Positions 39,867-49,632 of a stretch of 64,000 nt of DNA are shown here, one piece after another. The position numbers and the translations under genes were made by a program. Under the pieces are notes generated by a model. That model had not been told where the DNA came from and ran no database searches. It saw only the letters and a list, made by a program, of their open reading frames with translations. Origin of the DNA: Acidimicrobiales bacterium. GTDB lineage: Bacteria; Actinomycetota; Acidimicrobiia; Acidimicrobiales; MedAcidi-G1. The number at the start of each line of letters is the position of its first letter. Positions within the stretch are counted from its first letter, which is position 1. The stretch is from the NCBI GenBank assembly GCA_014237715.1, contig JAAZZG010000002.1, positions 62,001 to 126,000 of the forward strand. The letters run 5' to 3'.

Positions 39867-40877
39867 CTAGATGGTGAGCGAAGCCAGGAAGTCCAGCAGC
39901 GCCGCGTTGGTACCCCCCGCATCCTCCTGCTGCATCCAGTGGCCCACCCCGGGGAGGATCACCGAGTCGTGCAGGCCAGGCAGGGTCTCGCCATAGCGGG
40001 CGATGCTCCCAGCTCCCCAGATGGTGGGGCCGTCCTTCTCCCCGCCGATGTAGAGGGAGGGCTGCCGGATCGACGCCTCACGCCATGCCCGCAGGTCGAC
40101 CCAGTCGTGGTCCACGCAGCGATACCTGTTGAGGCCACCGGAGAACCCGGCACGGGCGAACTCGCCAACATAGAAGGCGATGTCGTCGGCGTCCTGCCAT
40201 GCCAACGGGCCATCCGGATAGTGGAACCGGTCGTCCAGCCGACCTCCCGGGGCTACGGCAAACCCGGCCGGTGCTCCCGGCATCGGGGGCGGCGCGTCGC
40301 CCGAGGCGCTGAAGATCATCCCCTCCAACCAGTGGGCCGGGTCGGTTCCGATCTCGGCTTCGGCTACCCCGGGTTCCTGGAAGTACTCGATGTAGAACAT
40401 GTCGTCGCCACCCATCATCCGGAAGATGTCGCTGGGCCTGAACCCGTTGGGCGGGGTGTAGGCCACGCTCAGGAGCGCCACCGCCCGAAAGACGTCGGGT
40501 CGGAGGAGCGCTGCCGTGCTGGCAATGGGCGATCCCCAGTCGTGGCCAACGATCACTGCCTCGGTCTCCCCGAGGGCCTCTACCACCCCGATGCAGTCGC
40601 CGACGAGGTCGACCAGCCGGTAGTCGTCGATCGCGTCGGGCGCTTCGGACGAGCCGTAGCCCCGCACGTCAATGGCTGCCGCCCGGAAGCCTGCGGCGGC
40701 GACCGCCGGCAGCTGGTGCCGCCACGAGTACCACGATTCGGGAAAGCCGTGAACGAACAAGACCAACGGGCCGGCCCCCGAATCACCTCCCATCTCGGCC
40801 ACGTGGATACGCGTGCCGTGGGCGTCCACGTCGTGGCGGGTCAGCCCTGCCGCGGTCAGATCATCCAGTGTCGTCAT
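39867..40877 (-). CDS. Alpha/beta hydrolase (epoxide hydrolase-like)
   Basis: 336 residues. Oxyanion motif HGFPESWYSWRHQLPAVA and nucleophile elbow GHDWGSPIA with Asp as nucleophile, the combination typical of epoxide hydrolases and haloalkane dehalogenases; the catalytic His is in GVGHWMQQEDAGG near the end. Opens epoxides or hydrolyses esters of small hydrophobic compounds in the cytoplasm. Its ATG overlaps the PIN-domain gene stop by 4 bp, an unusual partner for a toxin-antitoxin pair. Confidence 0.87.
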   Translation of the reverse strand: MTTLDDLTAAGLTRHDVDAHGTRIHVAEMGGDSGAGPLVLFVHGFPESWYSWRHQLPAVAAAGFRAAAIDVRGYGSSEAPDAIDDYRLVDLVGDCIGVVEALGETEAVIVGHDWGSPIASTAALLRPDVFRAVALLSVAYTPPNGFRPSDIFRMMGGDDMFYIEYFQEPGVAEAEIGTDPAHWLEGMIFSASGDAPPPMPGAPAGFAVAPGGRLDDRFHYPDGPLAWQDADDIAFYVGEFARAGFSGGLNRYRCVDHDWVDLRAWREASIRQPSLYIGGEKDGPTIWGAGSIARYGETLPGLHDSVILPGVGHWMQQEDAGGTNAALLDFLASLTI

Positions 40878-41311
40878 GTTTGTGGTTTCCCGTTCGTCTC
40901 CGCTGGATCCTCAACCCGGACCCCACGGACGAGGCTGCCATGGGCCATAGCCTCGGTGACCATCCGGTCGCACCCGCCAACCACCGCGGCCTCCACGGCC
41001 AGGGCATCACGGATGGTCAGGCCCACCTCGTCGGCGACGTCGGCGGCAGCCAGCACAAGCGAGGCATCGGCGGGTACCACGGTGAGTTCAGCCAACTCCG
41101 CCAGGGCACGCCGGGCCACCATGGCCGAGAGGGGGCGTGCCATCCGGGTGGTGACGGCATCCAGGAACTCGGCCAATACCGGACCCGATACGACCAACGC
41201 GGGGCCGTCGGTAGCCCCGATCGACGCCCGGGCTGCGGCCTGACGTCCCGGTTCGTCATCGTCGAACAACCTGGCCAGGATCGAGGCGTCCACGAAGGTC
41301 CGAGCCGCCAT
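40874..41311 (-). CDS. VapC-type PIN domain ribonuclease toxin
   Basis: 145 residues, PIN fold. The acidic residues are Asp8 (TFVDASILARLF), the Glu in VSGPVLAEFLDAVTTR and the Asp in GLTIRDALAVEAAV, with a final GGCDRMVT. VapC toxins cut tRNA or rRNA in a Mg-dependent manner and are inactivated by VapB. It follows the small ribbon-helix-helix gene, sharing one base (41311), as expected for a vapBC pair. Downstream overlap with a hydrolase gene suggests a longer operon. Confidence 0.85.
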   Translation of the reverse strand: MAARTFVDASILARLFDDDEPGRQAAARASIGATDGPALVVSGPVLAEFLDAVTTRMARPLSAMVARRALAELAELTVVPADASLVLAAADVADEVGLTIRDALAVEAAVVGGCDRMVTEAMAHGSLVRGVRVEDPAETNGKPQT

Positions 41312-41547
41312 CAGGTACTCCGACCCGGATCGGGGCTCGCTCCGGTGATGGGTCGACCGCCAGAACCAGCCGCCGAGGAGACCGACAGGGCCACCAGCCG
41401 GCGGCGTGCCGCATCCACCCGGTCGGCAGCCGAGTAGGCGGTCAGAAGTTCACGGACCACGGCATTGACCGAGGTGCCTTCCTCGGCGGCCCGGACCCGG
41501 GCCCGGTGCAGCAGGTCATCGTCAACGGCCAGCGTCAGGTTTGCCAC
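41311..41547 (-). CDS. VapB-type ribbon-helix-helix antitoxin
   Basis: 78 residues. The N-terminal ANLTLAVDDDLLHRARVRAAEEGTSVNAVVRELLTAY is a ribbon-helix-helix (CopG/Arc-like) DNA-binding segment; the disordered-looking C-terminal tail (ALSVSSAAGSGGRPITGA) would bind and neutralise the PIN toxin. It is upstream of the toxin gene, and an inverted repeat 29-65 bp upstream of its start is a likely autoregulatory operator. Confidence 0.82.
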   Translation of the reverse strand: MANLTLAVDDDLLHRARVRAAEEGTSVNAVVRELLTAYSAADRVDAARRRLVALSVSSAAGSGGRPITGASPDPGRST

Positions 41548-41575
41548 GGGTCGACTTCCTTTCTCGAATCCCTGT

Positions 41576-41618: not shown

Positions 41619-42755
41619 TCAAGTCAGTTGTCGCCCGTGGATCCAGTCCCTATCGAGGTAGCAGCCCTGTAGATATCGCTCAGGATCAGCCTCACCATGC
41701 CGGCCGTGAAGTACCCGTTCGTTGTCGAACACCAGGCACTCTCCGGGCGCCAGAGTGAACCGGTACTCCAGATCCTCACGATGCAGCAGCTGGGCAAAGG
41801 TCCGAAACGCCTCGTAGAAGGCTGTCATCTCGTCGAACGGCTGGTCGAACGGTGCGGCTGACCGGTTGTTGTATCGGACGGCCCGGATGGCCCCTGCCTC
41901 TGGGCCACCCTCCTCCACCTCGATCAACGGTCCCCGATTTTGTAGATCGAAACCGTCTCCCGACCAGCGGAACGGCACGCTGCGGGTTGACAACAGTTCG
42001 AAGGCTCCCGGCTCCTCGCCCCGCAACAGCTCGGCAGCCCGGAAGCCGTCGACCAGTACCGTCACCCCACCCACGTCGCTGGCGACCAGGCAGTGCAGCA
42101 ACTGGTACCCGGGAACCGGCCGGCGATACGGGTTGTCGGTGTGCACGTTGAGTGCCCGCGGCGTGAAGGCCAGATTGGTCGGGTTGGCCTCGGCCCGTAC
42201 GTGAAAGATCTCGCCGTAGTTGGTCTCACGGACCGGGCCCCACAGATTGGCCACGTCGACGATGCCCGCCCCCGTGCCAGTGGCGCCCGTTCCCGCAGCA
42301 TCGTCCCCCACGGCCAGGCCATCCACGATGGCCAGGCCATCGCGCACGAGTGCCATGGTGATGGCCTCCCACGCCTCGAGATCCTGCCGATCGGTCCATG
42401 GCAGCCGCTGGACCGACAGGCCGGCAGCCCCCCAGGAGACCGGTCGCCCAAATGATGCGGTCACGGAGCCGTCGTAGCGATTGGCTTCCAGCCATACCTC
42501 GTCATAGACGCTGGTCACGCCATCGGGGCCGAACGCCACCACCAGACAGCCGTTGACCACCTCAGCCGACATTGCGGTGACTTCGTCGGCCAACTCGGTG
42601 ACGTCGAAGAGGCGCTGGTCGTTGTCCCCGTGACGCGACGCCTCGTCCCGGGCGTTGTCCCTAAGCCACAGGGCGTGGAACCGCACCGGACCGGCGGCCA
42701 TCTCAACGGTGACCACGTCGCCGGCCGGGCCGACCGAGGCACCGAGGAGGCTCAC
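41619..42755 (-). CDS. Fe(II)/2-oxoglutarate dioxygenase, TmpA / gamma-butyrobetaine hydroxylase-like
   Basis: 378 residues. N-terminal GBBH-like domain (FHALWLRDNARDE, about 27-39) followed by a TauD-type jelly roll with iron ligands His205 and Asp207 (HTDNPYR) and His350 (VLHGRHG); the 2-oxoglutarate-binding arginine should lie about ten residues beyond. The cysteines that bind zinc in the N-terminal domain of mammalian gamma-butyrobetaine hydroxylase are missing. Coupled by a 4-bp overlap to an HD-domain oxygenase of PhnZ/TmpB type; this pair is the arrangement of TmpA and TmpB, which hydroxylate and then cleave 2-trimethylaminoethylphosphonate. A carnitine-pathway hydroxylase is the alternative if context is ignored. 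Confidence 0.82.
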   Translation of the reverse strand: MSLLGASVGPAGDVVTVEMAAGPVRFHALWLRDNARDEASRHGDNDQRLFDVTELADEVTAMSAEVVNGCLVVAFGPDGVTSVYDEVWLEANRYDGSVTASFGRPVSWGAAGLSVQRLPWTDRQDLEAWEAITMALVRDGLAIVDGLAVGDDAAGTGATGTGAGIVDVANLWGPVRETNYGEIFHVRAEANPTNLAFTPRALNVHTDNPYRRPVPGYQLLHCLVASDVGGVTVLVDGFRAAELLRGEEPGAFELLSTRSVPFRWSGDGFDLQNRGPLIEVEEGGPEAGAIRAVRYNNRSAAPFDQPFDEMTAFYEAFRTFAQLLHREDLEYRFTLAPGECLVFDNERVLHGRHGEADPERYLQGCYLDRDWIHGRQLT

Positions 42756-43318
42756 CGCCGCAGCCCCGGCGCAACAAGCAGGTACTCCCAGTGCTCAACC
42801 GGCGGGATCTCCAACCCGTCCACCCGGTCCCCGTCGATCTTGCCAGCGTCGTCCCAGCCTCGAACGGCGAGCGCGGCGTCGGCGAACGGCTCGGATTCAA
42901 ATGCCGCCGCCTCGACGGCCGACATAGGCCCACCCTGTAATCGCAGGGTCCCCACCGAGGCCGGACTCAACTCGGCCTCATAGCCCGGATCCACGAAGCA
43001 CCGGTACCGCTTGGCTGCCACGTGCAGGCGTACCGGCTCGCTCACACCGTCCGCGAAGCGCTCGGCCACCCAGGCCCCGCCGGTCGTCCCGTGGTCGGTC
43101 ACCCCGAACGCCGAGTCCGGTTCGTCCAGGAAGTGCCCCACGTCGTGCAGCAGGGCAGCCAGCACCAGGGCGTCATCGGCGCCGGCGACATGAGCCAACG
43201 CCGCAGCCTGACGGGCATGTTCGGCCATCGTCACCCTCTCGCTGTAGGTCTCATGGCCCCGGGCGGCAAACAGCGCCCGCACCTCATCAGGCACCCGATC
43301 CTTCATGTCGCGCATCAT
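42752..43318 (-). CDS. HD-domain mixed-valent diiron oxygenase, PhnZ/TmpB-like
   Basis: 188 residues from ATG 43318 (43306 is possible; a longer frame would overlap the divergent gene). It resembles PhnZ along its length: MAEHARQAAALAHVAGADD, AALLHDVGHF, a DHGTTGGAWVAERF block, LHVAAKRY, LSPASVGTLRLQGG, AAAFESEPFADAALAVRGWD. Predicted iron ligands are His34, His58, Asp59, His76, His99 and Asp156 or Asp157, in the same order and almost the same numbering as PhnZ. PhnZ and TmpB oxidatively cleave the C-P bond of 1-hydroxyphosphonates, releasing phosphate. Coupled to the 2-oxoglutarate oxygenase that would make the hydroxy intermediate. Confidence 0.85.
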   Translation of the reverse strand: MMRDMKDRVPDEVRALFAARGHETYSERVTMAEHARQAAALAHVAGADDALVLAALLHDVGHFLDEPDSAFGVTDHGTTGGAWVAERFADGVSEPVRLHVAAKRYRCFVDPGYEAELSPASVGTLRLQGGPMSAVEAAAFESEPFADAALAVRGWDDAGKIDGDRVDGLEIPPVEHWEYLLVAPGLRR

Positions 43319-43397
43319 GCCCGCTGGGGACCCCGGCGACCAGCGGGAATAGGTTCGACCCGTTCGTCCAACCCCACACACCCCCCGGAGAAACACC

Positions 43398-47929: not shown

Positions 47930-48057
47930 GGGCCGGAGTCTCGCAGCGCCACTACCGCCATACAACAAGCCCATGTTCGAGCGGACGCCGGAACCGAGCA
48001 TCAGAAAAATACGGCTCATCTCTTGCATTGCGGCTTGATCGTGGAGAGCATCCCGCA
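47930..48057. promoter_or_regulatory. Divergent intergenic region of CoA-transferase and MttB-family gene
   Basis: About 128 bases. It must contain the promoters of both divergent genes. A GGAG at 48043-48046 serves the rightward gene. I could not identify a convincing palindrome or promoter core by eye. Confidence 0.4.
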
Positions 48058-49632
48058 GTGACCATGACTCCAATCAACGAGCCGTCCACCGGATCGGCAA
48101 CCGGGCCCGAGCCGAGGCAGGTCCGTCGAGGTCGCGATGCACGAGCCGCCAAGCGCCGTACCCGGGCGCAGACCTGGTTCCCTGAACTGGAGCGGAAAAT
48201 CCCTTGGGTGGACCTGCTGACTGAGGAACAGGTCCAGACCATCCACGACGCCTCCATGGACGTCATCGAGGAGGTGGGCATCGAGTTCCGCTGCCCCGAC
48301 GCCATCGCAATGTGGACGGCCGCCGGTGCCTCGGTTGACGGCGTCCGGGTTCGCGTCGACCGCGAACTCCTCATGTCGCTGGTCGGCACCGCCCCATCCT
48401 CGTACACCATGGAGGCCCGAGATTCCGCCCACACCGTGACGGTGGGCGACGGGAAGACCATCTTCACCCCCTCCTACGGCGCCCCGTACGTCCTCGGCCT
48501 GGACGGGGTCCGGCGCCCGGGAAGCATCGAGGACTTCCGGAACTTCACAAAGCTCAACCACCTCTCGCCCGCCCTGCACATGTCGGGCGGCGTGGTCTGC
48601 GAACCCATGGACATACCAGTCCCCAAGCGGCACCTCTACATGACCGAGAGCCTGTTGAAGTATTCCTCCAAGCCGTTCATGGGCGCTGTGACGTCGATGG
48701 AGCGAGCCGAAGACAGCCTCCACATGGCCGGCATCGTCTTCGGGCAGGAATTCGTCCGGAACACCACCGTCATGACCTGTCTGGCCAACGGCAACACGCC
48801 GCTGGTATGGGACAAGACCATGCTGGACAGCGTCCGAGTGTTTGCCGGCGCCAACCAGGCCACCCTGTTCAGCCCCTTCGTGCTCGGAGGGGCGTCCACC
48901 CCGGCATCGACGGTCGGCGCGGTGATCCAAGTCAACATCGAAGCCCTCACCGGCGTGGCCTTCTCCCAGCTGGTCCGGGCCGGCGCACCCGCCCTGTACG
49001 GCCAGTGGCTGTCCACCGTCTCGATGAAGACCGGTGCCCCACAGGCCGGCACACCCGAGATCTGCCATATGAACCTGCTCACCGCCCAGATGGCCCGCCA
49101 CTACCGGCTGCCATCGCGCTGCAGCGGCTCGTGCACCAGCTCCAAGTTGGTCGACGCCCAGGCCGGCTACGAGGCGGCCCGCAACATGTACGGCGTGCTC
49201 ATGGCTGGCACCAACTTCGTACTGTCGACCACCGGCTACCTGGAGAGCGCCATGTGCCAGAGCTACGCCAAGTGGGTGCTGGACAGCGAGCAGTTGGAGA
49301 TGATGATGCGCCTCGGCGGCGGTGTCTCGTTCAACGACCTCGACGAGGTGCTGGCCACCATGCGCGAGGTCCCCCCGGGCGGCCACCATCTGGGAACTGC
49401 CCACACGCTGGCCAACTTCCAGACCGCGTTCTCGATGCCCGAGATGATGAACAGCGACAACTACGAACAGTGGCTGGCCGATGGAGCCCTCAGTGCCGAG
49501 GACCGGGCCGCCGCCAAGTGCCGACAACTCCTCGACGAATATGAGGAGCCCAACCTGCCCGACGACGTCCGTGCCGAACTCGAGGAGTACGTGGCCCGCC
49601 GCGATGCCGAACTCCCCGACCTGGTTTCCTGA
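48058..49632 (+). CDS. MttB-family (non-pyrrolysine) trimethylamine/betaine methyltransferase homologue
   Basis: 524 residues from GTG 48058 (ATG 48064 possible). It has the TIM-barrel MttB signature stretches: EVGIEFRCPDAIAMW, FTPSYGAPYVLGLDGVRRPG, SSKPFMGAVTSMERAEDSLHMA and RLPSRCSGSCTSSKLVDAQAGYE. There is no in-frame TAG, so it belongs to the large non-pyrrolysine branch, of which MtgB demethylates glycine betaine and MtpB proline betaine to a corrinoid protein. No corrinoid partner (MttC/MtgC) or activase is encoded in the window. First gene of an operon with DapA-like, ALDH, DadA-like and SDR genes. Substrate likely a quaternary amine (inferred). Confidence 0.84.
   Translation: MTMTPINEPSTGSATGPEPRQVRRGRDARAAKRRTRAQTWFPELERKIPWVDLLTEEQVQTIHDASMDVIEEVGIEFRCPDAIAMWTAAGASVDGVRVRVDRELLMSLVGTAPSSYTMEARDSAHTVTVGDGKTIFTPSYGAPYVLGLDGVRRPGSIEDFRNFTKLNHLSPALHMSGGVVCEPMDIPVPKRHLYMTESLLKYSSKPFMGAVTSMERAEDSLHMAGIVFGQEFVRNTTVMTCLANGNTPLVWDKTMLDSVRVFAGANQATLFSPFVLGGASTPASTVGAVIQVNIEALTGVAFSQLVRAGAPALYGQWLSTVSMKTGAPQAGTPEICHMNLLTAQMARHYRLPSRCSGSCTSSKLVDAQAGYEAARNMYGVLMAGTNFVLSTTGYLESAMCQSYAKWVLDSEQLEMMMRLGGGVSFNDLDEVLATMREVPPGGHHLGTAHTLANFQTAFSMPEMMNSDNYEQWLADGALSAEDRAAAKCRQLLDEYEEPNLPDDVRAELEEYVARRDAELPDLVS

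Follow-up and report, generated by a model that had tools for sequence, protein, structure and literature searches.

Which reaction, and on which substrate, do two overlapping oxygenase genes catalyze in a stretch of Acidimicrobiales DNA 64,000 nucleotides long (here called the window)? As far as sequence comparison can tell, the pair probably breaks down an N-trimethylated organophosphonate as a two-gene catabolic cassette, with 2-trimethylaminoethylphosphonate (TMAEP) as the likeliest candidate. The two parts of this answer differ in strength: that the substrate is a phosphonate appears very probable, and that it is TMAEP itself rather likely.

Organization of the locus

The initial annotation had described two overlapping reading frames, and both are indeed present on the minus strand:

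42752..43318, minus strand: open reading frame of a TmpB/PhnZ-type HD-domain diiron oxygenase (profile and alignment)
41619..42755, minus strand: open reading frame of a TmpA-like Fe(II)/2-oxoglutarate (2OG) oxygenase (profile and alignment)
42752-42755, minus strand: GTGA overlap, in which the TGA stop of the HD gene meets the GTG that starts its TmpA-like partner (sequence and reading frames)
43319..43397, minus strand: short divergent intergenic region (alignment of genus loci)

The HD gene lies upstream and the TmpA-like gene downstream, and the 4 bp that they have in common may couple their translation. Aligned with its relatives, the HD gene more likely starts at the second ATG (43315); residues of the HD protein are numbered here from the ATG at 43318. 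The intergenic blocks CGAAYCTA and CCCCAGCGGGCA are each present in 14/15 aligned genus loci (own locus included). The promoter scan found no sigma-70-like site in 43319..43397, and the promoter and terminator scan returned nothing.

A PIN-domain (VapC-like) gene occupies 40874-41311 on the minus strand, with a small upstream frame (about 41311-41550) resembling an antitoxin gene; the PIN gene stands beside the cassette in 12/15 genus loci and is present at sites lacking the cassette, too. Some 5 kb away from the two oxygenase genes, at 48028-49632, is a gene for an MttB-superfamily methyltransferase without an in-frame TAG, and downstream of it are genes for DHDPS, an aldehyde dehydrogenase and an FAD oxidoreductase. 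The MttB-superfamily protein is possibly a demethylase of glycine betaine or another quaternary amine; since its gene belongs to the syntenic backbone of the region, it has no proven link to the pair.

The TmpA-like hydroxylase

The product of the downstream gene matches Pfam TauD (PF02668, E = 1.5e-40) and, among the NCBIfam profiles, scores 340.8 bits on TmpA (NF049936) versus 261.8 bits on gamma-butyrobetaine hydroxylase (GBBH, TIGR02409), in both cases below the curated cut-off (400 and 414.75 bits, respectively). Its best match in a PDB sequence search is TmpA 6npb (E = 7.3e-76). The proposed iron ligands H205, D207 and H350 are borne out by alignment, and R360, which is invariant, would lie on the 2OG-binding side. 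The phosphonate contacts of TmpA, given as N187, N287 and R288 in the accessible part of PMC9296572 (the numbering of the solved chain is six higher), align with N194, N297 and R298 of the window protein. Both the iron-binding facial triad and the phosphonate contacts that mark a TmpA are present. Aromatic residues (Y180, F184, F197 and Y366) occupy what we take, with BBOX in mind, to be the cage positions, and three substitutions belong to the window clade: H185 for E/D, R212 for D, and F197 where most proteobacterial TmpA have Y. The lack of N-terminal zinc cysteines had been put forward as a difference from the described systems; it is none, because Leisingera TmpA lacks them in the alignment as well. 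The CxC..C zinc motif is kept in only 11/54 of the pair-linked or TmpA rows defined below.

The HD oxygenase

The upstream gene encodes a protein for which Phn-HD (TIGR03276) is the best-scoring family (181.7 bits), although its cut-off of 214.6 bits is missed, followed by TmpB (NF049941, 143.9 bits) and PhnZ1 (NF052439, 126.8 bits), each with a cut-off of 300 bits. We use the label TmpA/B-like for the two proteins because they miss the curated cut-offs (340.8 of 400 and 143.9 of 300 bits). In the PDB sequence search, TmpB 6npa was the best match (E = 3.9e-30), and PhnZ came next. Residues H34, H58, D59, H76, H99 and D156 align with the diiron ligands of TmpB and PhnZ; the predicted set of ligands is complete, with D156 (equivalent to PhnZ D161) as the last one and the alternative, D157, ruled out by the alignment. 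K103, S121, Q128 and R153 are also kept in common with both enzymes. A Tyr/Glu gate of HD phosphonate oxygenases is described in the part of PMC8177086 consulted, and its two residues, Y25 and E27, are present here with one residue between them (YSE, Y-x-E) in place of the Y-x-x-E loop of TmpB. The spacing is one residue in all 21 rows of the order with a motif found (order rows L085 and L086 gave no match) and two residues in 24/25 proteobacterial TmpB rows, as well as in TmpB and PhnZ.

The AlphaFold model of the HD protein (mean pLDDT 92.9) has PhnZ 4n71 (TM 0.86) and TmpB 6npa (TM 0.80) as its best folds, and that of the 2OG protein (mean pLDDT 84.9) has TmpA 6npb (TM 0.64) and BBOX (TM 0.66), with large rmsd. 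The fold search separates neither TmpA from BBOX nor TmpB from PhnZ, and it was rejected as a test of substrate.

A phylogeny against TmpB and PhnZ had been suggested; in the HD tree, the HD protein stands apart from PhnZ, which forms a separate long branch, and the window clade is not nested in the proteobacterial TmpB clade, beside which it is weakly joined (86/51) with the sister pair type described below. The HD copy of another genome, G012, scores nearly equally on TmpB (136.7 bits) and PhnZ1 (135.7 bits). Alternatively, the pair might act on an unmethylated phosphonate (such as 2-aminoethylphosphonate or methylphosphonate), as PhnY*/PhnZ pairs do. That the HD protein has general Phn-HD as its top NCBIfam family and PhnZ as its best fold would agree with such a substrate, but its partner is a TmpA/GBBH-type hydroxylase that has the aromatic cage positions, and PhnZ lies a long branch away in the HD tree; we consider this reading improbable.

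Residue signature and phylogeny of the 2OG oxygenases

The signature was read from an alignment of 68 rows picked from the fetched loci, which include 7 window-type, 6/9 sister-type, 11 fusion and 23/71 proteobacterial loci, among others. HD-linked or HD-fused rows, the TmpA reference counted in, make up 54; the other 14 comprise four from a plasmid outgroup (labelled GBBH), a human BBOX fragment, eight same-order copies whose fetched stretch has no HD gene, and L166b. The combination N194+R298+S299 occurs in 54/54 pair-linked or TmpA rows and in 0/14 others. Its parts and neighbours are less exclusive, with R298 alone in 54/54 linked rows versus 4/14 others, the NPYR motif in 53/54 versus 2/14, and N297 in only 39/54 versus 5/14. 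All four cage positions are aromatic in 50/54 linked rows, the exceptions being an N at position 197 in three rows and one incomplete row. In human BBOX, A-T stands in place of R298-S299, the arginine thus being an alanine. On the rows examined, N194+R298-S299 offers a simple test of TmpA-type versus carnitine-type hydroxylases.

L166b (L166:7143-8878) is a second, TmpA-unlike 2OG copy directly after a TmpA-TmpB pair; it is without R298-S299 and, while beside an HD gene, groups outside.

In a careful tree of 49 rows, 43 TmpA-like rows are split from six others with support of 99/95, the window clade receives 100/100, and the window protein falls on the TmpA side, apart from GBBH. A larger quick tree of 65 rows has four HD-less copies of the order in the TmpA branch as well (89 SH-aLRT); these copies fall outside the signature because of D194 and L299. 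The NF049936 score alone was rejected as proof of TmpA function, since HD-less copies in G017 and G022 reach 324 bits with R298 absent.

The hydroxylase might instead be a gamma-butyrobetaine hydroxylase of carnitine metabolism, its HD neighbour being unrelated. In keeping with this, it scores 261.8 bits on TIGR02409 and the BBOX fold is equally close, but its TmpA score is 79 bits higher, R298-S299 separates the linked rows (54/54) from the others (0/14), and the gene is tied to HD genes by linkage and by fusion. Such a role is very improbable.

Conservation and distribution of the pair

The HD gene was found in 14/16 other genomes of the genus and is followed by the TmpA-like gene in all 14. 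Against five relatives, the 2OG gene has a dN/dS of 0.13-0.24, the HD gene 0.14-0.27 and the neighbouring dehydrogenase 0.04-0.10; both cassette genes are thus under purifying selection, yet evolve faster than the backbone. The occurrence in 14/16 genomes, the constant TmpA-like neighbour and the dN/dS of 0.13-0.27 exclude a chance pairing. The flanking genes are a conserved backbone, syntenic across the genus, and between the acyl-CoA dehydrogenase and PIN genes the pair is missing from one genome of the genus (G011) and from two others of the family (G018 and G036), so that the two genes occur either together or not at all. An intervening reading frame at the empty site of G036 has weak similarity to an LLM-type oxidoreductase; absence could not be scored in G004 (flanking gene not found) and G022 (contig end). 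The neighbours (acyl-CoA dehydrogenase, alkylsulfatase-like hydrolase, CoA-transferase and MttB) were set aside as functional clues because synteny of the block extends throughout the genus and the near flanks are kept where the pair is missing.

Outside the genus, G032 carries a window-type pair in nearly the same arrangement, and a second (sister) pair type, with TmpA before HD, occurs in four other members of the G032 genus and in five genomes of two more genera. The two types share 37-41% identity, and three sister-type TmpA proteins pass the 400-bit cut-off (420.5 bits in G017, 400.7 in G019 and 400.2 in G021). Among 40 wider loci fetched, both genes or domains are present in 28 and the HD gene only in 12, which means that the HD family occurs also without a TmpA-like neighbour. 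In a sister genus, a PhyH-family oxygenase gene (L083:3212-4189) directly follows a TmpA-HD pair and perhaps supplies a second hydroxylase that feeds the same HD enzyme.

More widely, a scan of genome contigs gave 581 confirmed relatives, the best 80 of which were considered. An HD oxygenase is encoded in the fetched stretch of 79 of these 80, the exception (L131) being a 3.4-kb contig; in L111 the HD gene lies upstream on the opposite strand. Within the same best 80 of 581, the nine closest relatives with a name are MAGs of Acidimicrobiia, which upholds the earlier claim of a TmpA/TmpB-type pair for oxidative C-P cleavage in an actinobacterium, and the HD gene comes first in 9/9 Acidimicrobiia loci versus TmpA first in 69/71 proteobacterial ones. 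With two LysR queries, a match was found directly upstream in at least 42/71 proteobacterial loci and none beside the pair in the Acidimicrobiia loci of both pair types, as the initial annotation had noted for the window. In a literature search to which the primary TmpAB paper was out of reach, TmpAB in Acidimicrobiia was unreported among the matches listed, which is a weak negative.

Three-domain fusions and alkaline-phosphatase-superfamily neighbours

At least 11 genomes of the order, from 298 searched, encode an alkaline-phosphatase-superfamily domain, an HD oxygenase and a 2OG oxygenase in one reading frame (ten genomes plus G167, where a contig end interrupts the frame). Separate genes of that superfamily follow tmpB in 7/71 proteobacterial loci:

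L241-L250 and L097 (e.g., L250:2340-4781): fusion reading frames, 788-1012 aa stop to stop in ten genomes, interrupted by a contig end in one more
L110, L115, L117 (fragment), L125 (two pieces), L152, L165 and L170: proteobacterial loci with a separate alkaline-phosphatase-superfamily gene after tmpB

The 2OG domains of the fusions form a single clade (100 SH-aLRT). In their first domain, the D, D..GH and DHG positions typical of the superfamily, which we take to be its metal ligands, are retained; the closest proteins to this domain are nucleotide pyrophosphatase/phosphodiesterases, with a weak similarity to phosphonoacetate hydrolase; the whole is possibly a three-step enzyme degrading phosphonate esters. 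The fusions are an independent argument for two oxygenases working in series and suggest an unrecognised upstream step of ester cleavage. A gene of the superfamily also directly follows tmpB on an annotated Labrenzia plasmid (L184:9727-10572); several alphaproteobacteria share this arrangement. None was found in the window with the queries used. In two further loci (L087:9301-10347 and L085:2598-3674), such reading frames adjoin HD genes without a TmpA-like neighbour. The three-domain fusion was unreported among the matches listed in the literature search, again a weak negative.

Transport and other functions in the genome

In the genome (a MAG of 2.33 Mb in 75 contigs, 92.6% complete), TmpA and Phn-HD each have a single strong match, other matches being weak. 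It had been remarked that no phosphonate transporter adjoins the pair; this is true of the locus, while a putative phnDCEE-like set (PhnD-like binding protein, ATPase, PhnE, PhnE) lies elsewhere, on contig C55. Its PhnD-like protein is above the cut-off of the phosphate/phosphite/phosphonate subfamily and below that of the PhnD equivalog, both PhnE permeases are above cut-off, and the ABC ATPase frame was assigned by eye. A second, partial PhnD-like match is on contig C22. On contig C66 (L196:7700-13903), a choline/betaine-type ABC transporter, below its cut-offs and with two permease stretches within one 879-aa protein, adjoins an FMO-like monooxygenase gene; the arrangement presumably resembles TMA/TMAO gene sets.

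The same genome speaks to whether the pair might serve phosphonate biosynthesis as tailoring enzymes, like DfmD, rather than catabolism. DfmD, a distant relative, acts on TMAEP according to the accessible part of PMC9296572, but the sole PEP-mutase-family match in this 92.6% complete MAG lies within isocitrate lyase, and a Pfam scan of the 17 neighbouring window proteins found no phosphonate-biosynthesis enzyme. We give a biosynthetic role the least probability of all.

Proposed pathway and its standing

In the preferred reading, the TmpA-like enzyme, working with Fe(II), 2OG and O2, would hydroxylate the phosphorus-bearing carbon, while its aromatic cage grips the trimethylammonium group and N194/N297/R298 grip the phosphonate. 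Cleavage of the C-P bond with another O2 would then fall to the HD enzyme, a predicted mixed-valent diiron oxygenase gated by Y25/E27, and release phosphate and glycine betaine. We infer these reactions, their stereochemistry and a use as a source of phosphate (and betaine); a TmpA would be expected to hydroxylate TMAEP at C1 in the R configuration. The two-step interpretation of the initial annotation stands in that the genes are a TmpA/TmpB-type pair and is weakened in that both proteins miss the curated TmpA/TmpB cut-offs.

This explanation is favoured by several lines of evidence: (i) the best PDB matches are TmpA and TmpB, the phosphonate contacts are conserved and the signature separates 54/54 rows from 0/14; (ii) the tree split has 99/95 support, HD linkage holds in 79/80 (best 80 of 581) and fusions exist; (iii) the pair is present or absent as a unit, with dN/dS of 0.13-0.27, in a genome with a phnDCEE-like transporter. 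On the other hand, the following count against it: (i) the missed cut-offs, the shorter gate loop, H185/R212/F197 and the HD-only loci (12/40); (ii) Phn-HD as best model, the near-tie of TmpB and PhnZ1 in G012, the HD tree and the ambiguity of the folds; (iii) N297 in only 39/54 rows and the four HD-less copies in the TmpA branch of the quick tree.

Given the clade-specific changes, the substrate may be a different methylated phosphonate, and the same two-step chemistry may act on a methylated or longer compound such as N,N-dimethyl-AEP, trimethylaminopropylphosphonate or another betaine-type phosphonate. Both missed equivalog cut-offs, the window clade's own H185, R212 and F197, the shorter Y-x-E gate and the separate clades in both trees point that way, but the window clade keeps the phosphonate contacts and all four aromatic cage positions, and we hold this to be unlikely. 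A wider proposal, which we advance tentatively and doubt more than we believe, is that Acidimicrobiia have an oxidative branch of their own, in which the window clade acts on a methylated phosphonate other than TMAEP and the three-domain proteins take a phosphonate ester through to phosphate. If so, the shortened gate loop and altered hydroxylase pocket would serve that substrate, and a single protein would pack ester hydrolysis, hydroxylation and C-P cleavage (e.g., for a phosphonolipid head group).

The cassette would place TmpAB-type chemistry, as a conserved unit of two genes, in a marine actinobacterial lineage, outside the proteobacterial clade of its description, and phosphonate surveys that apply the curated thresholds for TmpA, TmpB or Phn-HD would overlook it.

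Comparison with known systems

The pair is a divergent clade of a chemistry known from proteobacteria, with the gene order reversed. TmpA and TmpB of Leisingera caerulea convert TMAEP to glycine betaine and phosphate (PDB 6npb-d and 6npa, as described in reviews). They have in common with the window pair the two-gene unit, the iron ligands, phosphonate contacts and cage positions of the hydroxylase, the diiron ligands and Tyr/Glu gate of the HD enzyme, and the absence of zinc cysteines. The window pair differs in its 37-40% identity, the HD gene coming first, the Y-x-E instead of Y-x-x-E gate loop, the absence of a LysR regulator and scores below both equivalog cut-offs. PhnY*/PhnZ (AEP) and GmPhnY/GmPhnZ (methylphosphonate) share the two-step logic and the HD family, whereas the window hydroxylase is of the TmpA/GBBH type and its HD protein is about 33% identical to PhnZ. 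BBOX resembles the 2OG protein in fold, Fe/2OG site, aromatic cage positions and an equivalent of N194, but is without R298-S299, and the outgroup loci have no HD partner. PhoF of Fonsecaea, a fused PhnY-PhnZ as described in the consulted part of PMC10574752, likewise makes one unit of a hydroxylase and a C-P-cleaving oxygenase, fused where the window genes are separate; as far as that part of the source goes, the fusions of the same order differ from PhoF in having another type of hydroxylase and an extra alkaline-phosphatase-superfamily domain.
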